In this document: one piece after another, positions 261 to 11,393 of the stretch
How positions within the stretch are numbered: position 1 is the stretch's first letter
Layout: every line of letters begins with the position of its first letter
Assembly (NCBI GenBank): GCA_020831885.1
Contig: JAFIFU010000038.1
Span: 1 to 34,507 of the forward strand
DNA length: 34,507 nucleotides
Source of the DNA: Ectothiorhodospiraceae bacterium
Lineage (GTDB): Bacteria; Pseudomonadota; Gammaproteobacteria; Nitrococcales; Aquisalimonadaceae
Reading direction: 5' to 3'
Position numbers and translations under genes: made by a program
The notes under the pieces: model-generated
Database searches by the model: none
What the model was told of the DNA's origin: nothing
Seen by the model: the letters and a program-made list of their open reading frames with translations, nothing else

Positions 261-1166
261 CTATTTGTTCTGGTTGATCACCAGGGCCACGCCGGTCACG
301 GCGACGCCGATACCGATGAGTGCCAGCGGCCCCAGTCGCTCGCCGAACAGGATCCAGGCCTCCACCGCCGTGACCGGCGGCACCAGGTAGAACAGGCTGG
401 CGACGCGGGAGGCCTCACCCCGGCGGATCAGCGCCATGAGCAGCAGGATGGCGGCGATGGACAGGCCGAAGATCAACCACAGCAGCGTCAGGCTGAAAGT
501 CAGCGTCCACTCGATCTGCCGCGTCTCGAACAGCAGGGCGGCCAGGCCCAGCACCGAGGCCGCACCGATAAACTGGATAAAGGTGCCCGTGGTGAGCGGC
601 ATCTCGGTGCAGTTCCGCTTCTGGTAGAGGGTGCCCACGGAGATGCCGAACAGCGCGGCCACGGCGAAGGCCAGCGAGGCCACACCGAAACCGCTGAACA
701 ACTGCACCGGATCCGCGGTATCCAGCTTCTCACCCAGCACCAGCACGACGCCCAGCAGGCCGAGACCGATACCCACCCACTGCCGTCCGGTCAGCCGTTC
801 GCCCAGCCAGGGGCGGGCGAGCACGGCGGTGACCAGCGGCTGCAGGCCCACGATCAGCGCCGCCACGCCGGCGGGCATGCCCAGGTGGATGGCAGAGAAC
901 ACGCCGCCCAGATACGCGCCGTGCACCAGCATGCCCGCCACGGCGATATGCCCCCACAAAGCCGGGCGGGAGGGCCAGCGTTCCCGTAGCAGAAGTATGA
1001 TGAGGTACAGCACGGCCAGGGTGCAGACGAAGCGCACGAACAGGAAGGTGAAGGGCTCGGCGTAGGGCAGACCGAACTTGGCCCCGATGAAGCCGGTGCT
1101 CCACAACAGTACGAACAGCACCGGCATGGCCTGGATCCACAGGCCTTGCAATCGCGTCCCGGTCAT
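261..1166 (-). CDS. DMT superfamily (EamA) permease
   Basis: This 301-residue protein is almost entirely hydrophobic. About ten membrane segments arranged as two EamA repeats are apparent, the second starting near residue 160. The N-terminal WSTGFIGAKFGLPYAEPFTF pattern is typical of drug/metabolite transporters. Family members export amino acids, metabolites or drugs across the inner membrane; the substrate cannot be read from the sequence. The ATG lies 6 bp after the phaC stop, so the gene is very probably co-transcribed with phaC. The only SD-like element (GGAG) lies rather far upstream, inside the end of phaC, so translational coupling is plausible. A start at Met13 is possible but would trim the first helix. 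Confidence 0.9.
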   Translation of the reverse strand: MTGTRLQGLWIQAMPVLFVLLWSTGFIGAKFGLPYAEPFTFLFVRFVCTLAVLYLIILLLRERWPSRPALWGHIAVAGMLVHGAYLGGVFSAIHLGMPAGVAALIVGLQPLVTAVLARPWLGERLTGRQWVGIGLGLLGVVLVLGEKLDTADPVQLFSGFGVASLAFAVAALFGISVGTLYQKRNCTEMPLTTGTFIQFIGAASVLGLAALLFETRQIEWTLTFSLTLLWLIFGLSIAAILLLMALIRRGEASRVASLFYLVPPVTAVEAWILFGERLGPLALIGIGVAVTGVALVINQNK

Positions 1167-1172
1167 CGGCGG

Positions 1173-2984
1173 CTACGGCTCCAGCACGTAACTGCCCGGG
1201 GCATCCGCAATGGGCGGATACGTCCTGTTGCCCATGCCGGGCGGATCCACCAGGCCGCTGGACCGCTCCACCAGCCAGCGCTGCCAGGTGGGCCACCAGG
1301 AGCCTTCCTGCTCCGGCGTACTCTGCTCCCAGCTATCCGGATCGATAAAGGGTTCGCGGGCCCGTTGGGTACGCACCTTGAAACGACGCCGCGGGTGCCC
1401 CGGCTCGCTGACGATACCGGCGTTGTGGCCACCATTGGTCAGCAGGAAGGTCACCTCGTCGGCATCGGTGAGCAGGTGGATCTTATAGGCGGACTTCCAT
1501 GGGGCCACGTGATCTGCTGTGGTGCCCACGGCGAAGATGGGCGCGCGGATGTCCTGCACCGCCACGGGACGGTTGTCCACCTGGTAACGGCCGCTGGCCA
1601 GGTCGTTGTTGAGAAACAGCTTCCGCAGGTACTCGGAGTGCATGCGGAACGGCATACGGGTCAGGTCCGCGTTCCAGGCCATGAGCTCGTTCATGGGCCG
1701 CCGTCGGCCCAGCAGGTAGTCATGCACGATGCGGGACCAGATGAGATCATTGGAGCGCAGGATCTGGAAGGCTCCGGCCATCTGGTAACCGTCCAGATAA
1801 CCCTGATCCCACATCATGTTCTCCAGGTAGGCCACCTGGCTCTCGCCGATGAACAGCGTCAGCTCGCCGGCCTCGGTGAAGTCCACCTGGGTGGCGAAGG
1901 TAGTGACCGAGGCCAGGCGCTGGTCATCGTCCCGGGCCATGGCCGCCGCGACGATGGACAGCAGCGTGCCCCCCAGGCAGTACCCCACGCCATGCACCTT
2001 GTCCCGACCGGTGATGGCGCAGACCGCATCCAGGGCGGCCATGGGCCCCAGCCGGCGGTATTCCTCCATGCCCAGATCCCGTTCCTCGGACCCCGGGTTG
2101 CGCCAGGAGATCATGAACACGGTGTGGCCCTGGTTCACCAGGTATTCCACCAGCGATTTGTCCGGCGCCAGGTCCAGGATGTAGTACTTCATGATCCAGG
2201 CCGGCATGATCAGCACCGGTTCGGCATACACCTGCTTCGTGGCCGGTTCGTACTGGATCAGCTCAATCAGGCGGTTGCGGTAGACCACCTTTCCGGGCGT
2301 CACGCCCAGGTTCTCGCCCACCCGGAACCCCTCCACGCCCACTGGCGGCCGGCCGGCCATGGCGCGCTCCCAGTCCTCCAGGAAGTTCTGCCAACCGTCA
2401 TACAGGTTCCGGCCCCCGGTGGCCAGCGTGGTGGCAGTGATCTCCGGATTCAGCCACGGGGAATTGGACGGCGAATAGCGATCAAGCATCTGCCGGGCGA
2501 TGAAATTCACCACCCGTTCCCGTTCCGGTGACAGGCCGTCCACGTCGGTGGTGGCGTTGTGCCACCACTGCTGTGTCAGCAGGAAGGACTGGTGAATCAG
2601 GTTGTACGGCCAGCGCTGCCAGGCCTCATCGCTGAATCTGCGGTCCTGGGACAGGGGCTCGATGCAGGTGGGGCACTGGGGATCCCGGGCCGCCCGCCCG
2701 GCGTACTGGGCGAAGCGCGTGGTCTTACGGAGGAATTTCTCCCCCAGCTCCATCTGCTTGCCGGGGGAGAGCATCAGGTGCGCCAGCCACTCGAAGTACA
2801 CGCTGGCCAGCCCGGCCGGCGTGATTCCGGCGGTGAAACGGGCCAGATTGGCCTTGAACGCACGGTCCAGCGCATGCGTCGCATAATAACCCGGATTCGG
2901 ACGCTCGCCTGTGGTGGGCGCGGGCGTGCTCGGCTGCCGGCCCTGGGACCGGGCTTCGGTGCGGCGGGTACGGGGCATGCGCAT
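1173..2984 (-). CDS. phaC: Polyhydroxyalkanoate synthase, PhaC-like
   Basis: A 603-residue alpha/beta-hydrolase-fold polymerase. PhaC joins (R)-3-hydroxyacyl-CoA units into PHA storage granules in the cytoplasm. The lipase-like box GYCLGG carries the nucleophile Cys336; the other triad residues are Asp491 (TTADHVAPW) and His520 (NGGHNAG). The N-terminal PhaC domain spans roughly residues 50-240. Length and triad spacing match class I enzymes (about 590 residues, no separate PhaE/PhaR partner seen). GGAGG sits only 2 nt before the first ATG but 8 nt before a second ATG at 2978, so Met3 is the likelier start (601 residues). It lies between the AbiTii gene and the permease on the same strand. 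No phaA, phaB or phasin gene is in the window, so monomer supply comes from elsewhere. Confidence 0.9.
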   Translation of the reverse strand: MRMPRTRRTEARSQGRQPSTPAPTTGERPNPGYYATHALDRAFKANLARFTAGITPAGLASVYFEWLAHLMLSPGKQMELGEKFLRKTTRFAQYAGRAARDPQCPTCIEPLSQDRRFSDEAWQRWPYNLIHQSFLLTQQWWHNATTDVDGLSPERERVVNFIARQMLDRYSPSNSPWLNPEITATTLATGGRNLYDGWQNFLEDWERAMAGRPPVGVEGFRVGENLGVTPGKVVYRNRLIELIQYEPATKQVYAEPVLIMPAWIMKYYILDLAPDKSLVEYLVNQGHTVFMISWRNPGSEERDLGMEEYRRLGPMAALDAVCAITGRDKVHGVGYCLGGTLLSIVAAAMARDDDQRLASVTTFATQVDFTEAGELTLFIGESQVAYLENMMWDQGYLDGYQMAGAFQILRSNDLIWSRIVHDYLLGRRRPMNELMAWNADLTRMPFRMHSEYLRKLFLNNDLASGRYQVDNRPVAVQDIRAPIFAVGTTADHVAPWKSAYKIHLLTDADEVTFLLTNGGHNAGIVSEPGHPRRRFKVRTQRAREPFIDPDSWEQSTPEQEGSWWPTWQRWLVERSSGLVDPPGMGNRTYPPIADAPGSYVLEP

Positions 2985-3104
2985 GTCCTCCGTGACGGAA
3001 GAATGACGGACCTGGCAGGAGCCTGAGGGGGGGGTGTCCGGCCCGGTTTAATTCACACCAGCAGTCACCCACTGGCCGCGGGCCCGGCCGGTGATCCCGG
3101 GGGA

Positions 3105-3779
3105 TCAGGCCGGCGCGCGCCCCAGCAACCGGGACAGCAGACCTCCCTGCCGGCGGCGCATTTCGGCGACGGCGGCATCGGCCGCCTCCCCCGCCTGCTG
3201 GAGAATCTCCTCCAGCCGCTCCGCCACCCCCGCAGCCGCCGCCCGGTCCCCGGAGCTGAAGGAGGAGCCCTGGCCACGCACGCCCGCTTCCAGCAGCGCC
3301 CCGCTCCAGAGACGGATACCCATGCGCACCGTCTGCAGCACGCGATCAACCCCCGACATGGGCACCATCTGACAGAGATCGGTATCCAGGCTGGTGAGCC
3401 GGCGGATCTGGTTCGCGCGCGCCGGATCCAGCGGACTCGGGCACCCCCCCTTGCGCAGGATGGCTTCGTAGTCCGCCTCCAGTTCGGTGATGCCGGTGGG
3501 CAGGCTGTAGTCGGAAACGGCCTTGCGCTGGGCATCGGTGATAGGCGCCTCCACCCAGCCCAGCCCCGGCCGCCAGGCCAGCAGGGCCGCGTCGTCACCC
3601 CTGCGGTAGGCGGGGATTTCAGCCCCTTCACCATACCCGTCCCGCTCGGCCCTGATCCAGGCGCAGACGCTGGACTCCCGCAGCACAGTGGCGGCCAGCA
3701 GGCTGCGGTTCAGCAGTGCCGACAGCTCCTGATCCGGCTCGACCACCTGCCCATGAATGGATTCAATCATCGACGCCAT
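3105..3779 (-). CDS. AbiTii-domain protein (putative abortive infection type)
   Basis: The frame opens at 3821, but the start is placed at the ATG at 3779 because GGAGGAGG lies just upstream. This gives 224 residues beginning MASMIESI. The first ~100 residues (LSALLNRSLLAATVLRES, CAWIRAERDGY, then EIPAYRR) resemble the AbiTii N-terminal domain, in which a helical segment is followed by a W..xELxGY and lP.YR pattern. That domain is found in proteins annotated as abortive infection. The C-terminal ~60 residues are charged, Ala/Glu-rich and probably helical or coiled-coil, ending in a basic LLSRLLGRAPA tail. No signal peptide or membrane helix is seen. The family's biochemical activity is not known to me. 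It is the first gene of a minus-strand run ahead of phaC, with a 120-126 bp gap. Domain assignment is by eye. Confidence 0.65.
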   Translation of the reverse strand: MASMIESIHGQVVEPDQELSALLNRSLLAATVLRESSVCAWIRAERDGYGEGAEIPAYRRGDDAALLAWRPGLGWVEAPITDAQRKAVSDYSLPTGITELEADYEAILRKGGCPSPLDPARANQIRRLTSLDTDLCQMVPMSGVDRVLQTVRMGIRLWSGALLEAGVRGQGSSFSSGDRAAAAGVAERLEEILQQAGEAADAAVAEMRRRQGGLLSRLLGRAPA

Positions 3780-3933
3780 GTCCCCTCCTCCCGGCCGGGG
3801 CGCCCAGGACACACCCGGCACGGCTCATCCGTGTCATCCGTTATGGAAGCGTTTCCCAAGCTCAACGTTAACGCCCTGACGCCACGGAAAATGCAGCAGA
3901 GTTCACAGGTTCCGATCCGATACTTTTCCTGAG

Positions 3934-3950
3934 CGGCACGCCCTTTGCTT
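3934..3950 (+). promoter_or_regulatory. Sigma-54 (-24/-12) promoter for the pilin gene
   Basis: CGGCACGCCCTTTGCTT matches the RpoN consensus (TGGCACG-N4-TTGCW) at all but one of the specified bases. GG is at 3935-3936 and GC at 3947-3948, exactly the required 10-bp gap. Transcription would start near 3960, giving a leader of about 28 nt before the GTG start at 3988. Type IV major pilin genes of many gammaproteobacteria use RpoN with the PilS/PilR two-component system, which supports the call. PilR sites upstream were not identified. Confidence 0.75.
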
Positions 3951-3987
3951 AAGGAATCCCATACAACGCACAACACGGGGTGGCCAG

Positions 3988-4443
3988 GTGAAGGAGAAGG
4001 CACGCGGATTCACATTGATCGAGCTCATGATCGTGGTGGCGATCATCGGCATCCTGGCGGCCGTGGCCATTCCCGCCTACCAGCAGTACGTGGCCAGAAC
4101 CCAGGCCGGGGTTGTCTTTGGCGAGCTGCGGAGCGTTCGCACAGGGGTGGAAACCTTGATTGCCCTTCAGCGGTACGCGCTGCTGGATCAGGCCGAGGTG
4201 CTGGGCAGCCCGAGCTCGGTGGGCTGGACAGGCTCCAACCTCGGCGACATCACCACGGTGACCAATAATGTCACGGGTGACGGCACGTGGCAGGTGGAGT
4301 TCACCTTCGGCCACAACGGCGCGCCCGTTTCCCCGCCCGTGAACGGACGCCTGTTACGGATCACCCGGGACGCCCAGGGCACCTGGTCCTGCACCAGCAA
4401 TCTGAATCCCAACCACCGGCCCCAGGCCTGCGACGGCCTGTGA
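3988..4443 (+). CDS. pilA: Type IV major pilin-like prepilin
   Basis: A 151-residue type IVa pilin. The short basic leader MKEKARG is followed by the class III prepilin cleavage site G^[17 protein letters not shown], so PilD would cut after Gly7 and N-methylate the new Phe. Glu5 of the mature protein is present, and the next ~25 residues form the hydrophobic alpha-1 stalk. Two cysteines near the C-terminus (Cys135 and Cys148) are placed to close the usual D-region loop. The start is GTG; the in-frame KEKARG leader and family length support it. It stands alone, with no other pil gene in the window, and has its own sigma-54 promoter. Role: subunit of pili for twitching, adhesion or DNA uptake; minor pilin status is less likely given the promoter and length. 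Confidence 0.92.
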
Positions 4444-4780: not shown

Positions 4781-5593
4781 ATGAGTATTCTGAACGTCGA
4801 GGGAGTGTCCCTTTCCTTTGGTGGCGTGAAAGCGCTGCGAGACGTGAGCATGCAGGTTGAGAAAGGCAGCATCACCGCCGTGATCGGCCCCAACGGCGCC
4901 GGCAAGACCTCGCTGTTCAACTCGATTTCCGGCTTTTACAAACCCCAGGAAGGCCGCGTGCTGTTCGAGGGCGAGGACATCACCCGCCTGCCGCCCCCCA
5001 GGCGCGCCGCCCTGGGGCTGGGCCGCACCTTTCAGAACATCGCCCTGTTCCGTGGCATGACCGTGCTGGACAACGTGAAGCTCGGCGCCCATGTGCGCAT
5101 GCGCACCGGCCTGCTGTCGGCGTTCTGGTATCTGGGCAAGGCCCGCCGGGAGGAAGCGGAGATCCGGGAGCAGATCGAGCGGGAGGTGTTCGATTTTCTG
5201 GAAATCGACCATATCCGCAGGCATCCGGTGGCCAACCTGCCCTACGGCCTGCAGAAACGGGTGGAACTGGCCCGGGCGCTGGCCATGCGGCCGAAGATCC
5301 TGATGCTGGACGAGCCGGTTGCCGGCATGAACCGGGAAGAGAAGGAGGACATGGCCCGCTTCATCCTGGACGTGAAGGAGCACTGGGGCATGACCGTGCT
5401 GATGGTGGAGCACGACATGGGCATGGTGATGGATATCTCCGACCAGGTTTACGTGTTGAATTTCGGGCAGTTGATCGCCAGCGGCAAACCCGCCGAGGTG
5501 CAGGCCAACCCCGAGGTGATCCAGGCCTACCTGGGCTCGGGGGACGTCTCCACCCTGCGGGAGAAACTGGGCGCCAGGAAGAGGGTTGCGTGA
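4781..5593 (+). CDS. livG: Branched-chain-type ABC transporter ATPase LivG
   Basis: A 270-residue cytoplasmic ATPase of the HAAT (hydrophobic amino acid) uptake family. Walker A GPNGAGKT spans residues 36-43, the Q-loop Gln is 85, the signature is the LivG-type variant LPYGLQKR (153-160), Walker B is ILMLDEP with Asp177-Glu178, and the switch His is 211. The inserted segment after the Q-loop (FWYLGKARREEAEIRE) is characteristic of LivG. The start at 4781 follows GGAG by 6 nt; the longer open frame to 4475 has no homologous sequence. It is the first gene of a tight livGHMKF-ligase operon. The linked CoA ligase suggests the transported solute is a carboxylic acid rather than leucine (inference). 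Confidence 0.93.
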   Translation: MSILNVEGVSLSFGGVKALRDVSMQVEKGSITAVIGPNGAGKTSLFNSISGFYKPQEGRVLFEGEDITRLPPPRRAALGLGRTFQNIALFRGMTVLDNVKLGAHVRMRTGLLSAFWYLGKARREEAEIREQIEREVFDFLEIDHIRRHPVANLPYGLQKRVELARALAMRPKILMLDEPVAGMNREEKEDMARFILDVKEHWGMTVLMVEHDMGMVMDISDQVYVLNFGQLIASGKPAEVQANPEVIQAYLGSGDVSTLREKLGARKRVA

Positions 5594-6471
5594 TGGAGTG
5601 GCTGTTCTTTTTCGAGGTATCCCTCGCCGGGCTGGGCACCGGCGGCCTGTATGCGCTCACCGCCATCGCCTTCGTGCTGATCTACAAGGCGACCCGGGTG
5701 ATCAATCTGGCCATCGGCGAGATGCTGATGGTGGGCGCTTATCTGTTCTTCGGCGCCGCCGCCGGCTGGGCCCTGCCCTGGTGGCTGGCCATCATCGCCG
5801 CACTGATCGGCGGCGGCATCCTGGGCATTGTGCTGGAACGCGGGGTGATCCGGCCGCTGCTGGGGGAGAACCCCATCTCGGTGTTCATGGTCACCATCGG
5901 CCTGGGCAGCATTCTGGTGGGTATGGTGGAACTGATCTGGACCGCCAATCCACGCAGTCTGCCGAATTTCTTCCCCACCGACCCGATCTTCATCGGTGAC
6001 GCCTTCCTGGCACCGAAGACCTTCTGGAGCTTCGTGGTGGCGGCCGTGGTCATCGCCCTGTTCCTGCTGCTGTTCCGCTTCTGGCGGGGCGGCGTGGCGC
6101 TACGGGCAACCGCGTCGGATCAGGGCGCCGCCTACGCCATGGGCATCAACGTGCCGGCGGTGTACAGCCTGGCCTGGTGTCTGGCCGGGGTGATCGCCGC
6201 CGGCGCCGGCATTCTGCTGGGCTCCATCGGCGGCATTTCATCCGAGATGGGCTTTTTCGGCCTCACCGTGCTGGTGGTGGTGATCGTGGGCGGGCTGGAC
6301 AGTGTGCTGGGCGCGCTGCTGGCCGGCATCCTGATCGGCTGGATGGAAGCCATGGCCGGCGTCTACCTGGGCGGCGAGTACGAACACCTGGTGACCTTCA
6401 TTCTGTTGATGGTGGTGCTGCTCCTCCGGCCCTACGGCCTGTTCGGCACCCGCGAGATCGAGCGACTGTAA
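5593..6471 (+). CDS. livH: Branched-chain-type ABC transporter permease LivH
   Basis: A 292-residue inner-membrane permease with about eight hydrophobic segments, the usual LivH size. The opening (ASLAGLGTGGLYALTAIAFV-like: SLAGLGTGGLYALTAIAFVL) and the conserved ATRVINLAIGEMLMVGAY stretch are typical of the family, as is the late VVVIVGGLDSVLGALLAGIL loop. The ATG at 5593 overlaps the livG stop by one base (TGATG). An alternative GTG at 5590 would add one Met and give a 4-base overlap; either way translation is coupled to livG. It should pair with LivM to form the translocation channel driven by LivG and LivF. Confidence 0.92.
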   Translation: MEWLFFFEVSLAGLGTGGLYALTAIAFVLIYKATRVINLAIGEMLMVGAYLFFGAAAGWALPWWLAIIAALIGGGILGIVLERGVIRPLLGENPISVFMVTIGLGSILVGMVELIWTANPRSLPNFFPTDPIFIGDAFLAPKTFWSFVVAAVVIALFLLLFRFWRGGVALRATASDQGAAYAMGINVPAVYSLAWCLAGVIAAGAGILLGSIGGISSEMGFFGLTVLVVVIVGGLDSVLGALLAGILIGWMEAMAGVYLGGEYEHLVTFILLMVVLLLRPYGLFGTREIERL

Positions 6472-6473
6472 CC

Positions 6474-7517
6474 ATGCGCATTGGATCCCCCAAGGAAACC
6501 TACATTGCCGACGAGGCGCTGTTCCGTACCCGCACGCAGTGGATGTGGTTCGGCATACTCCTGGCCATGCTGGCGATCTATCCCTTCGTCGCCAACATGT
6601 ACTGGATCTTTCTGCTCTGCCTGATCTCCATCAACATCATCAGCACCACCGGGCTGAACATCCTCACCGGGTACACCGGTCAGGTGAGCCTGGGCCAGGC
6701 GGCCTTCATGGGGGTTGGCGCCTACACCGTGGCCTGGCTGGATAACAACACCGGCTCGCCCTTCTTCATCAACCTGCTGGCGGGCGCCGGCATGGCCACG
6801 GCCATCGGACTGATCGCCGGGCTGCCCAGCCTGCGGGTGAAGGGCCTGTATCTCGCGATCGCCACCATCGGTGCGTCCTTCATTCTGCAGTTCATCTTCA
6901 TCAACTGGGAAAGCGTCACCCGTGGTACGCGCGGCATCAATATTGATCCGCCCCGGGTGCTTGGCACCGAGCTGGACAACCCGGACACCTTCTACTGGCT
7001 GGTGGTGCCGATCATGGTGGTGATGGTGATCCTGGCGGCGAATCTGTTCCGCACCCGTATCGGGCGGGCCTTCATCGCCATCCGCGACCGGGACATCTCC
7101 GCGTCGGTGCTGGGCATCAACCTGCCCTTCTACAAGCTTATGAGCTTCGGTATCGCGTCGTTCTACGCCGGCATGGCCGGTGGGCTGTACGCCTATTTCT
7201 TCGGCGCCATCAATCCGGAGAGCTTCCCGCTGCTCATGTCCATCTTTTTCCTCGCCGCCATCATCGTGGGCGGAATGGGCACCATCCTCGGCAGCATTCT
7301 GGGGGCCATCTTCATGACCCTCACGCCCGAGGTGCTGCGCTACGGGGTGGACTTCGCCTCCCCGTTCATCGACAACCCCTCGCAGATCCTGTCGCCGTTG
7401 CGCACGGCGGTGTTTGGCGCGGTGATTGTCGGTTTTCTGTTGTTCGAGCCCCACGGGCTTGCGGAAATCTGGCGTCGTATACGCCGCTTCTTCCACTTGT
7501 GGCCGTTCCGTACGTGA
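6474..7517 (+). CDS. livM: Branched-chain-type ABC transporter permease LivM
   Basis: A 347-residue permease starting 2 bp after the livH stop. About ten hydrophobic segments are apparent. Diagnostic LivM motifs are GLNILTGYTGQVSLGQAAF (about residues 59-77), LPSLRVKGLYLAIATIG, and the cytoplasmic RTRIGRAFIAIRDRDISASV coupling region that contacts the ATPases. The C-terminal LLFEPHGLAEIWRRI segment, ending in a basic tail, is also typical. The open frame extends upstream into livH but that part is out-of-frame shadow sequence. Partner of LivH in the inner membrane. Confidence 0.92.
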   Translation: MRIGSPKETYIADEALFRTRTQWMWFGILLAMLAIYPFVANMYWIFLLCLISINIISTTGLNILTGYTGQVSLGQAAFMGVGAYTVAWLDNNTGSPFFINLLAGAGMATAIGLIAGLPSLRVKGLYLAIATIGASFILQFIFINWESVTRGTRGINIDPPRVLGTELDNPDTFYWLVVPIMVVMVILAANLFRTRIGRAFIAIRDRDISASVLGINLPFYKLMSFGIASFYAGMAGGLYAYFFGAINPESFPLLMSIFFLAAIIVGGMGTILGSILGAIFMTLTPEVLRYGVDFASPFIDNPSQILSPLRTAVFGAVIVGFLLFEPHGLAEIWRRIRRFFHLWPFRT

Positions 7518-7537
7518 TCGGCAGGAGGGTTAGCGTG

Positions 7538-8713
7538 ATGATCTTCAAGAAGCTTGCTCGTCAATTCGTCGCCCCGGTGGCCGCCGCCACGCTGGCGCTG
7601 GGGGCTTCGTTCTCCGCTTCGGCCGATGACAAGGAAATCGTGCTGGGCGGCTCCATCCCCATGACCGGGCCGTTCGCCTTTGCCGGAATCCAGTTCGACC
7701 GGGGCCTGAAGGATTACGTGGAGTGGATCAACGCCCAGGGCGGTATCGAGGGCCATCGGCTGCGCTACGTGGGCGAGGACACCGGTTACCAGCAGGATCA
7801 GTCCGTGGCCGTGTTCCGCCGCATCACCAGCCGCGAGAACGTGAATTTCTACTTCGGTGATTCCACCGCGTTCCAGCAGGCCATCAACCGGGAGCTGGAC
7901 CGGCGGGACATCCTTATGACCGGCGCCTCCTTCGCCTCGGAGCTGAACAACCCGGATCAGTACCCGCTGCAGTTCCTGCTGGGCCCGGACTACAGCGAGC
8001 AGGTGGGGATTCTGCTGCGACACATCGCTGACGAGAGCCCCGGCGCCCGGGTGGCCCTCATCCATTCCGACACCGAGTTCGGCCGCGACCCCATCGCCTT
8101 CGGCCGCAACATGGCGGAGCAACTGGGCCTGACCGTGGCCGCCACCATCGTGACGCCGCCGGGCGCCGCCGACATCTCCGCCGCCGCCCTGGAACTGCGC
8201 CGGGCCCGGCCGGACTACGCCATCTTCCACGGCTACGTGCTGTCCCCGATTCCGGACTTCATCCAGCGCGCCCGTCAGATGGGGATGGATACCCGGTTCA
8301 TGGGCACCTACTACACCATGGACCAGGGCATCATCAACGAAATGGGCGAGGCCGCCGACGGTTTCATGGGCGTGATGCCCTACCGCTACTACTACGACGA
8401 GGAAGGCCCGGCGCCGATCATGGACGCCATCCGCGAGCTGCACGACGAGTATCAGTCCACCACCTACATCCAGGGCTGGATGACCGGCGTGCTGATCACC
8501 AAGATCGCGGGCGAGACCATCCGTGCGGGCAAGGAGCTCACCGGCCGCAACATGCGGGAGACGCTGGACTCCCTGCGTGACATCGACACCGGGGGCATCA
8601 TGGGAGTGCCGGCCAACTTCCTGGGCAACTCCATCCCCATCGGCCGCATCTACCGGGCCGATGTCTCCAAGGGCCAGATGGTGCCTGTCTCCGACTGGAT
8701 CATTCTGGACTGA
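7538..8713 (+). CDS. livK: Periplasmic substrate-binding protein, LivK type
   Basis: A 391-residue type I periplasmic binding protein (Peripla_BP_6). A signal peptide is evident: basic MIFKKLARQ, hydrophobic VAPVAAATLALGA, then SASA with cleavage expected before DDKEIVLGG near residue 29. The mature start (IVLGGSIPMTGPFAFAG, GLKDYVEWINAQGGIEGH) is characteristic of the LivK/urea/aromatic-acid binding family. AGGAGG at 7523-7528 favours this start; an adjacent GTG at 7535 is the alternative. It captures the solute in the periplasm and delivers it to LivHM. The ligand cannot be deduced; CoA-ligase-linked members of this family often bind aromatic or aliphatic carboxylates. Confidence 0.92.
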   Translation: MIFKKLARQFVAPVAAATLALGASFSASADDKEIVLGGSIPMTGPFAFAGIQFDRGLKDYVEWINAQGGIEGHRLRYVGEDTGYQQDQSVAVFRRITSRENVNFYFGDSTAFQQAINRELDRRDILMTGASFASELNNPDQYPLQFLLGPDYSEQVGILLRHIADESPGARVALIHSDTEFGRDPIAFGRNMAEQLGLTVAATIVTPPGAADISAAALELRRARPDYAIFHGYVLSPIPDFIQRARQMGMDTRFMGTYYTMDQGIINEMGEAADGFMGVMPYRYYYDEEGPAPIMDAIRELHDEYQSTTYIQGWMTGVLITKIAGETIRAGKELTGRNMRETLDSLRDIDTGGIMGVPANFLGNSIPIGRIYRADVSKGQMVPVSDWIILD

Positions 8714-8722
8714 GGTCTCATT

Positions 8723-9535
<813 letters not shown>

Positions 9536-9572
9536 ACCAGTGGAACCGAACAGAGCCCCCGACGGAGGGACC

Positions 9573-11393
9573 ATGACGCGTACCGAGCTTCCGAACCTGA
9601 CCCTGCCCCAGATGCTGCGCGAGAACGCGCGCACCCGCGGCGATGCCGTGGCCCTGCGGCAGAAGGACTTCGGGATCTGGCATCCGATCAGTTGGAGCGA
9701 ATACTACCGGCGTGCCAGGCATTTCGGCCTGGGCCTCCGGTCGCTGGGGCTTCAGCCCGGCGGCCATGTGGGGGTGATCTCCGAGAACCGCACCGAGTGG
9801 GTCATCGCCCAGATGGGCACCGGCATCGTGCGGGGCGTCACCGTGGGCGTCTATCCCACCAGCCCGGCACCGGAGGTGGCCTACGTGCTGGGCCACGCGG
9901 ACGTGGAATACGTGCTCTGCGAAGACCAGGAGCAGACCGACAAGGTGCTGGAGGCCCGCGGTGAACTGCCCAGGATCCGCAAGATCATTGTCGCGGAGAT
10001 GAAGGGCCTGCGCCAGTACGATGAACCGGATCTGCTCTCTTTCGAGCAGGTGGAGGAACTGGGGGCGCAACTGGACGAGGAGCAACCCGGACTGGCGGAT
10101 CAACTGCTGGACGAACAGCAGCTCACCGACCTGGCATTGATGATCTACACCTCGGGCTCCACCGGCAAACCCAAGGGCGCCATGATCAGCTACCGGAACA
10201 TCCGCGAGGCGGCGCCCGGGATCATCGGCCGGCTGGAGCTCACCGAAAACGACAGCGTGCTCTCCTACCTGCCGCTGTGCCATGTGGCCGAGCAGGCCAC
10301 CACCAATTTCGCCCCCATCTATCTGGGCATGCTGGTGAACTTCGGCGAATCGCTGCGCACGGTGCAGGAAGACCTGCGGGAAGTGGCCCCCACGGTGTTT
10401 CTGGGGGTGCCGCGCATCTGGGAGAAAATGCACTCCGCCATCCATATCAAGATGCTGGAAAGCGGCCGCATCCGCCGCTGGCTGTACGAAACCGCCCTGC
10501 GCCAGTGCGAGCCCTTCTGCTTCAAGCACCGCTCGGCGCTGGGGCCACGGGAAAGACTCACCTACGGCATCTGGTACCTGCTGGTGTTCCGGGCGCTGCA
10601 GAATTTCATCGGCCTGCGCAACTGCCGGGTCTCCATCACCGGCGCGGCCCCCATCGCCCCGGACATCATCCGCTTTTTCCGCATCATCGGCGTGCCGCTG
10701 CTGGAGGTCTACGGCCAGACGGAGACCACCGGCATGGTCACCGGCCACCGGCCCGAACACATGTTGCCGGGCACCGTGGGCGAACCCACCGTGGGCACCG
10801 AGATCCGTGTGGCCGAGGACGGCGAACTGCTGATCAGCGGCGGCATGGTTTTCGAAGGCTATTACAAGAACGAGGAGGCGACCAGGAACACCATCGTGGA
10901 CGGCTGGCTGCATACCGGCGACGTGGTGGAACTGCGGGACGGCCAGGTGAAGATGGTGGACCGCAAGAAGGACATCATGATCACCGCCGGCGGCAAGAAC
11001 CTGTCGCCTTCGGAGATCGAGAACACCGTCAAGGCCAGCCCCTACATCAAGGAATGCATCGTGGTGGGGGAACGGCGCAAGTACGTGGCGGCGCTGATCC
11101 AGATCGACTTCGACACGGTGGCCAAGTGGGCCGAGGAGAACGGCATCGCCTACACCACGTTCCGCAGCCTGGCGGAGAACGCCCAGGTCCGGAAACTGGT
11201 GGAGGCAGAGGTGGAGAAGGCCAACCAGACCATGCCCCGGGTGGCGCAGATCAAGCGGCTGGCCTTGCTCACCAAGGAGCTGGATCACGACGACGACGAG
11301 GTCACCGCCACCATGAAGATCCGGCGCTCCAACATCTACAAGAAGTACAGCGACCTGATCGAATCCTTGTACGGGGAGGCCGGGGCCGCCTGA
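9573..11393 (+). CDS. Long-chain-type acyl-CoA ligase (AMP-forming)
   Basis: A 606-residue ANL-superfamily adenylating enzyme that makes acyl-CoA from a carboxylate, ATP and CoA. Motifs: P-loop MIYTSGSTGKPKGAM (190-204), YGQTETTG (380-387), GWLHTGD (444-450) and DRKKDIMITAGGKN with the A10-type Lys near 475. Length and the KNLSPSEIENTVKASPYI region place it with the FAA1/COG1022 long-chain group rather than the shorter FadD group. The start at 9573 follows GGAGGGA; the frame opens at 9540 but that start has no ribosome site. It follows livF by 37 bp and is the last gene of the transport operon, so it probably traps the imported acid as a CoA ester at the membrane (inference). Chain length and substrate are unknown. 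Confidence 0.9.
   Translation: MTRTELPNLTLPQMLRENARTRGDAVALRQKDFGIWHPISWSEYYRRARHFGLGLRSLGLQPGGHVGVISENRTEWVIAQMGTGIVRGVTVGVYPTSPAPEVAYVLGHADVEYVLCEDQEQTDKVLEARGELPRIRKIIVAEMKGLRQYDEPDLLSFEQVEELGAQLDEEQPGLADQLLDEQQLTDLALMIYTSGSTGKPKGAMISYRNIREAAPGIIGRLELTENDSVLSYLPLCHVAEQATTNFAPIYLGMLVNFGESLRTVQEDLREVAPTVFLGVPRIWEKMHSAIHIKMLESGRIRRWLYETALRQCEPFCFKHRSALGPRERLTYGIWYLLVFRALQNFIGLRNCRVSITGAAPIAPDIIRFFRIIGVPLLEVYGQTETTGMVTGHRPEHMLPGTVGEPTVGTEIRVAEDGELLISGGMVFEGYYKNEEATRNTIVDGWLHTGDVVELRDGQVKMVDRKKDIMITAGGKNLSPSEIENTVKASPYIKECIVVGERRKYVAALIQIDFDTVAKWAEENGIAYTTFRSLAENAQVRKLVEAEVEKANQTMPRVAQIKRLALLTKELDHDDDEVTATMKIRRSNIYKKYSDLIESLYGEAGAA

Follow-up and report, generated by a model that had tools for sequence, protein, structure and literature searches.

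The window, a stretch of 34,507 nucleotides from one contig of an Ectothiorhodospiraceae bacterium, contains an AbiTii-family gene followed by phaC and an EamA-family permease gene (Table 1). This gene order had been read from the sequence in an earlier note and was confirmed, with all three genes on the minus strand. Upstream of the AbiTii gene, at 4781-11393 of the window, a branched-chain amino-acid-type ABC transporter cluster was seen by eye, and then an acyl-CoA ligase-like gene. Simple scans of positions 2900-4100 found neither terminator-like nor promoter-like sites, and since no terminator was found between the AbiTii gene and phaC, read-through or co-transcription into phaC is possible in this genome. 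The start of the AbiTii frame at the ATG is supported by the Shine-Dalgarno-like GGGAGGAGGGG preceding it.

Table 1. Features of the window around the AbiTii-family gene
Feature	Position	Strand	Basis or remark
EamA-family permease gene, incidental neighbour	261..1166	-	domain match
phaC, incidental neighbour; one of two PhaC_N genes found in the genome	1173..2984	-	domain match
Gap between AbiTii gene and phaC, 120 bp	2985..3104	-	terminator-like site not found
AbiTii-family gene	3105..3779	-	224 aa, complete frame with stop; ATG at 3779
Putative MinD-like C-terminal tail GLLSRLLGR, residues 213-221	3117..3143	-	pattern and conservation
Poorly conserved linker, residues 187-211	3147..3221	-	column entropy
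AbiTii domain, residues 3-184	3228..3773	-	Pfam PF18864 match
Core motif W41-R59 (W...E..GY......P.YR), with invariant glutamate E45	3603..3659	-	alignment
Shine-Dalgarno-like GGGAGGAGGGG	3782..3792	-	read from sequence; precedes ATG at 3779
Type IV pilin-like gene, divergent neighbour upstream of AbiTii gene	3988..4443	+	domain match

The AbiTii assignment had been proposed for the N-terminal half of the protein. A profile search with PF18864 matched the protein at E 9.2e-18 and 65.6 bits, where the curated cut-off is 27.6 bits, so that the family name stands while its extent is revised, the domain spanning residues 3-184 and thus most of the protein. The PADLOC model for AbiTii matched it as well (E 4.5e-20). 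No other AbiTii match at E <= 0.001 was found in the genome and no defence island was seen around the gene, which is solitary, as had been suggested. Five residues, W41, E45, G48, P56 and R59, are invariant in 31 of 31 short members of the kind found in the window (alignment A4), in 6 of 6 long AbiTii proteins (alignment A5) and in 41 of 41 sequences of alignment A6, although 39 of the latter 41 were selected by the pattern of this very motif. PF18864 matches all 31 short members of A4 at E <= 0.01 and all 12 full-length carriers of the window's order, and the short subfamily has in addition an invariant P..GW..AP signature. Judged by its sequence, the window protein is an AbiTii-family protein. 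The available portion of PMC3710099 describes a highly conserved glutamate in the AbiTii domain, which is probably E45 here, and fusions of the domain with c2405- or Ymh-type HEPN domains. Such a fusion was considered for the window protein and rejected, as just 38 residues, linker and tail, follow residue 186.

Structure prediction bore out the assignment. An AlphaFold2 model based on 41 sequences (pLDDT 94.5, pTM 0.87) predicts an alpha+beta globular domain of helices and short strands, as in AbiTii, with a last helix at residues 189-220 that takes in most of the tail; an earlier model from two sequences had reached a pLDDT of 39.9. Foldseek gave no significant match among solved structures in the PDB (best E 0.7) or among viral structures (best E 0.068), the best VIA-align 2 Z score of 5.7 lay within the range of chance arrangements, and sequence searches of solved structures gave best E values of 1 and 0.66. 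On these results, a new fold cannot be claimed.

The short form was followed through several genome samples. A protein search of 54 genomes of the window's order found matches in 13, in 12 of them over the full length or almost all of it and in the thirteenth (G003) over residues 148-220 only. PF18864 also gave 13 genomes above its cut-off, namely the same 12 at 66-82 bits and G034, with a long form, at 161 bits. Among 369 genomes sampled across the class, two matched the window protein, both from the window's order, and three matched the AbiTii family. A profile of the 12 short forms recovered 14 sequences from 398 genomes of the phylum: the window gene, three short full-length forms, all in genus g291 of family f188, and ten longer or partial ones. 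Within f188, matches were found in 106 of 163 genomes and in three of 16 genera (97 genomes in g291, four in g483 and five in g490), with one match in 103 genomes and two in three; in one f188 genome, two short copies adjoin (G861, C6:128134-129734). Some 28 genomes of g291 would be without the gene. A sample of 390 genomes from the order of f188 gave 21 matches, 13 of them the f188 short forms and eight weak or in longer frames, one of these a partial match in a 146-aa frame. Within the samples searched, the short subfamily was found in two gammaproteobacterial lineages. Full-length matches are absent from 42 of the 54 order genomes, and any match from 57 of the 163 f188 genomes, some of the genomes being incomplete; there are also one remnant (G003) and one internal TAG. 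The gene is dispensable. Carrier genomes are larger, with a median of 4.15 vs 2.45 Mb (p = 9e-6, uncorrected for relatedness), which fits many accessory genes.

The 12 order genes lie among ordinary genes, which for the most part differ between genomes; named by eye, these include ligA with zipA, and a PII-like gene with nadE and sucCD. A common locus was found in G004 and G005, common neighbours in G001 and G003, and two nearby genes in common (57% and 64% identity) in G030 and G037. The G003 remnant lies near nitroreductase and bacterioferritin genes, both of which occur, arranged otherwise, no more than 5 kb from the intact gene of the sister genome G001. No conserved functional partner or neighbour common to all 12 loci was found. 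The f188 loci, by comparison, recur. Those examined number 33, at about 1.5 kb per side, and comprise the 30 best-scoring family matches and three from the phylum scan, 29 of them in g291 and four in g483. In 25 of the 29 g291 loci, and in none of the four from g483, the 1.5 kb next to the AbiTii gene hold a homologue of DUF1338, TauE or ZIP; DUF1338 is upstream and co-directional in 15 of the g291 loci, and in nine a divergent TauE gene upstream is combined with a convergent OmpA/MotB-like gene downstream. AstA, DUF1338 and AbiTii keep a constant order in three 20-kb f188 loci. A DUF3581-type protein was seen about 4-5 kb from AbiTii in two f188 loci (L157:4991-5722 and L158:14020-14727) and one of the 12 order loci (L061:4072-4842), 44% identical; these occurrences are too few for a partner to be named. 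In the regions upstream of 45 genes, patterns for LexA, sigma-E, sigma-32, sigma-54 and sigma-70 did not clearly exceed what shuffled sequences gave.

The ratio dN/dS was 0.02-0.12 in 14 pairs of short AbiTii genes, picked for closeness and not independent of one another as sequences were reused, and these values indicate purifying selection. The AbiTii tree contains a group of G000, G007 and G012 (support 96) and one of G001, G004 and G005 (support 100), and the RecA tree also has G000/G007/G012 (78) and a G001/G005 group (96), as far as sampled. The two trees conflict where AbiTii joins G000 to G012 (support 98) and RecA joins G007 with G012 and G013 (support 57), and most deeper nodes of the RecA tree are unsupported. 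As a test of vertical inheritance, the AbiTii and RecA distance matrices agreed weakly (Spearman 0.22, p = 0.079). AbiTii evolves faster, with 58% identity between G000 and G012 against 92% for RecA. Phage records gave no match, and the relatives found in 15 plasmid records are distant, at 28-31% identity. The short subfamily seems to have been inherited vertically in the main, and the gene is with good probability a resident of the chromosome rather than a passing defence gene.

The short proteins end in a conserved tail. Its consensus, G-[FLV]-[FLM]-x-[RK]-[LMVF]-[FL]-G, follows an unconserved linker, and MinD of the window's own genome ends alike, in KKGLFGRLFGS. The pattern lies within the last 16 residues of 43 of 45 short members, that is, 10 of 12 in the order and 33 of 33 examined in f188 (from 106 matching genomes); the two order members missing it are without the first glycine. 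It is present in 15 of 15 MinD proteins of carrier genomes and in 0 of 10 long AbiTii proteins. The pattern was written after the tails had been viewed and is descriptive, while the controls are independent: it occurs in 0 of 188 neighbour proteins and in 1 of 212 further frames, thus in 1 of 400, the further frames being simple longest frames, not all of them genes, from which three short AbiTii had been set aside beforehand. Mean column entropy is 1.20 at residues 212-221, 2.18 in the linker at 187-211 and 1.16 in the best part of the domain, so conservation in the tail comes close to that of the best domain part, unlike that in the linker. By alignment, the short form falls into three parts: an AbiTii domain whose core is invariant, a linker of low conservation and a conserved tail of MinD pattern. 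The earlier note had thought of membrane stress, and this remark gains support of another kind than it proposed, from the conserved MinD-like C-terminus, which makes it probable that short AbiTii proteins are tethered to the membrane by their tails. Neither the MinD-like tail nor a resident subfamily is mentioned in those parts of the AbiTii literature that were accessible.

The reading preferred here is that the product of the window gene is a membrane-tethered short AbiTii protein whose subfamily resides in the chromosome; as a whole it is given a probability of about 45%. The tail would fold as an amphipathic helix and anchor the protein on the cytoplasmic side of the inner membrane; this hold would probably be weak, with self-association helping as in MinD. 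At the membrane, the AbiTii domain might bind a partner or a signal. Against this reading count the existence of four proviral short AbiTii, a hydrophobic moment that does not separate the tails from controls, the weak agreement with RecA together with the faster change, and the dispensability of the gene. As to what such a protein does, the likeliest role, held with some reserve, is that short AbiTii is still triggered by phage or stress and acts at the membrane to arrest growth or to interrupt infection. According to the available text of PMC3985639, when proteins of lactococcal two-component Abi systems, AbiTii included, were tested in E. coli, AbiEii alone inhibited growth, a result that weighs against plain toxicity of AbiTii.

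Nearly as likely, and likewise below even odds, is a domesticated housekeeping role in which short AbiTii serves the envelope, division or another membrane function with no tie to phage. The frequency of the gene in g291, its recurring locus there and its ordinary neighbours are what a domesticated gene would be expected to display, as are the low dN/dS values and the lack of anything close in phage or plasmid records. Such a role is harder to reconcile with the patchy occurrence outside g291 (12 of 54 genomes in the order, three of 16 genera in f188), with the frequency of the AbiTii family at large in viral contigs, and with the failure to find a conserved functional partner.

The tethering itself has a competitor in the possibility that the conserved tail is a docking peptide or a degradation signal and not a membrane anchor. 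Many C-termini are recognised by proteases or by partners, and the hydrophobic moment of the tails is not distinctive: 50 of the 188 controls reach the median of the order members, for which reason it was rejected as proof of a membrane helix. Residues and spacing nevertheless match the C-terminus of MinD in the carrier genomes, and the structure model makes the tail region helical. The MinD membrane-targeting sequence is, in the accessible part of PMC8155659, an amphipathic membrane-binding helix, too weak as a single copy and effective on dimerisation. A docking or degradation tail is on this evidence unlikely, and a tether is the preferred reading of the tail. No membrane-binding, localisation or phage test of a short tailed AbiTii protein was found in the literature.

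Somewhat less likely still is an ordinary solitary abortive-infection gene that was acquired by the window's genome and came to lie beside phaC by chance insertion. It would agree with membership of the AbiTii family (PF18864, PADLOC), with the many AbiTii in viral contigs and with neighbours that are mostly unlike between order genomes. A setting of this kind exists within the order, since the long AbiTii of G034 is flanked by a DUF2726 nuclease on one side and AIPR on the other (L073:8663-12146), with a phage integrase (L073:244-1254) about 8 kb off in the same 13-kb stretch, which is likely a mobile defence cluster. The window gene, however, groups with the short forms of its own lineage and scores apart from the G034 long form, and the purifying selection and the locus that recurs in f188 also speak against this reading. 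The absence of a visible defence island, which had been remarked for the window gene, extends to all 12 order loci, where none was seen, although scattered defence genes remain compatible with the PADLOC scan. That scan covered all but four long genes of the 134 neighbours, thus 130, and gave 35 families at 1e-5, with 25 of them among the matches listed; of ten neighbour proteins scanned singly, three had matches (the cNMP-binding protein and the cyclase of G004, and one mad2 in G012). In G004, at 5-9 kb from AbiTii (L056:763-5026), a cNMP-binding protein adjoins a class III cyclase-like one, a pair that resembles Pycsar in its PADLOC domains, and in G005 an IS110-like transposase was seen by eye about 5 kb from it (L057:3501-4622).

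A link to PHA granules had been considered because of phaC, and the common strand, the 120-bp gap and the lack of a detected terminator between the two genes are in its favour. Among the loci compared, this adjacency is local to the window. For the order's other 11 full-length carriers, the 16-20 kb taken around AbiTii contain no PhaC match, with one flank missing because the contig of G052 stops 64 bases past the AbiTii match. In f188, phaC lies beside AbiTii in 0 of 33 short loci (about 1.5 kb per side) and 0 of 3 longer ones. Conversely, AbiTii was not found in the 11-18 kb around the PhaC homologues of seven relatives (55-58% identity); an eighth homologue (G006, 43% identity) stops at the contig edge, and the G006 genome is without any AbiTii match. 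Regardless of AbiTii, PhaC_N is present in 50 of the order's 54 genomes, in 12 of 12 full-length AbiTii carriers and 38 of 42 others (Fisher p = 0.56), so that homologues are not consistent partners of phaC and the proposed granule role falls. The protein was accordingly rejected as a PHA-granule-associated one, no conserved linkage with phaC having been found; phaC is almost certainly irrelevant to the AbiTii gene, and a PHA-granule or other phaC-linked function is highly improbable. The best reading is that the window protein is not a PHA protein and is instead a resident membrane-tethered AbiTii protein.

When viral contigs were scanned with a degenerate DNA pattern of the core motif, 45 were retrieved (L197-L241), with 46 AbiTii frames, all at E 3.4e-12 or better to the profile built in this analysis: 40 complete ones of 269-317 aa, two cut off and four short ones (222-229 aa, proviral). 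Long AbiTii is thus frequent in viral contigs. The strict tail occurs in 0 of these 46 frames, while the four short ones end, by eye, in similar basic, aromatic tails; the degenerate pattern would miss many short forms, and the absence of short forms from viral contigs is not demonstrated by it. Searching viral contigs for similarity to the short or the long forms, on the basis of a few exact peptide patterns, gave nothing. In two proviral contigs, the short AbiTii runs into a protein of 67-81 aa with, by eye, one apparent membrane span (L215:8890-9812 and L241:1395-2278); both proteins carry a GDKNK/GNKNK motif by eye, and in L215 XhlA and GH25 endolysin genes lie near. Several long AbiTii (L117-L123, L063, L065, L067) end by eye in hydrophobic, glycine-rich stretches that could touch membranes. 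One long AbiTii lies near gyrB (named by eye) in G437 (L161:6330-10208), and long forms are therefore not always in mobile settings.

A wider proposal is offered tentatively. In two gammaproteobacterial lineages, one AbiTii branch may have settled in the chromosome, near-core in one genus, with a MinD-type tail that fixes the protein to the inner membrane. Action at the membrane may then be general for the AbiTii domain: the short forms would be held there by the tail, those of some proviruses through a small partner protein with a single span (contigs L215 and L241), and long forms perhaps through their hydrophobic C-termini. The mechanism of AbiT, an abortive-infection system of lactococci, was called unknown in a 2023 review (PMC10286901, in the part available). 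If the proposal is true, this mechanism, unexplained so far, gains a place of action. A short AbiTii maintained by selection, common in one genus and provided with a membrane-type tail offers a simple, testable entry to it, through its location in the cell and through whether its action is directed at phage or at the cell that makes it. An AbiTii annotation in these bacteria, moreover, need not signify a mobile defence gene.

Compared with the AbiTii family (PF18864), the window protein has the W..E..GY..P.YR core, the conserved glutamate and, in the model, the alpha+beta fold. The order short forms differ in scoring 66-82 bits (best of 31 short, E 4.6e-27) vs 117-161 for seven long ones, and in having about 220 residues, the invariant P..GW..AP and the MinD-like tail. 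Long AbiTii proteins have the N-terminal domain in common with them, but reach about 270-330 aa with a further C-terminal region, carry the tail in 0 of 10 cases and lie in many instances in viral contigs. Lactococcus lactis AbiT (AbiTi and AbiTii) resembles the window protein in that its AbiTii is without a HEPN domain, as given in the accessible text of PMC3710099. It is a two-gene system in the corresponding part of PMC3985639, whereas the window AbiTii adjoins phaC and a pilin gene; no AbiTi partner was recognised among these adjacent genes, as judged by their own domain matches. MinD differs by its ATPase domain, which short AbiTii is without, and homology of the tails is not claimed; the likeness is one of the tail, in the C-terminal G-[FL]-[FL]-x-R-[LMI]-F pattern that the MinD proteins of 15 carrier genomes display.
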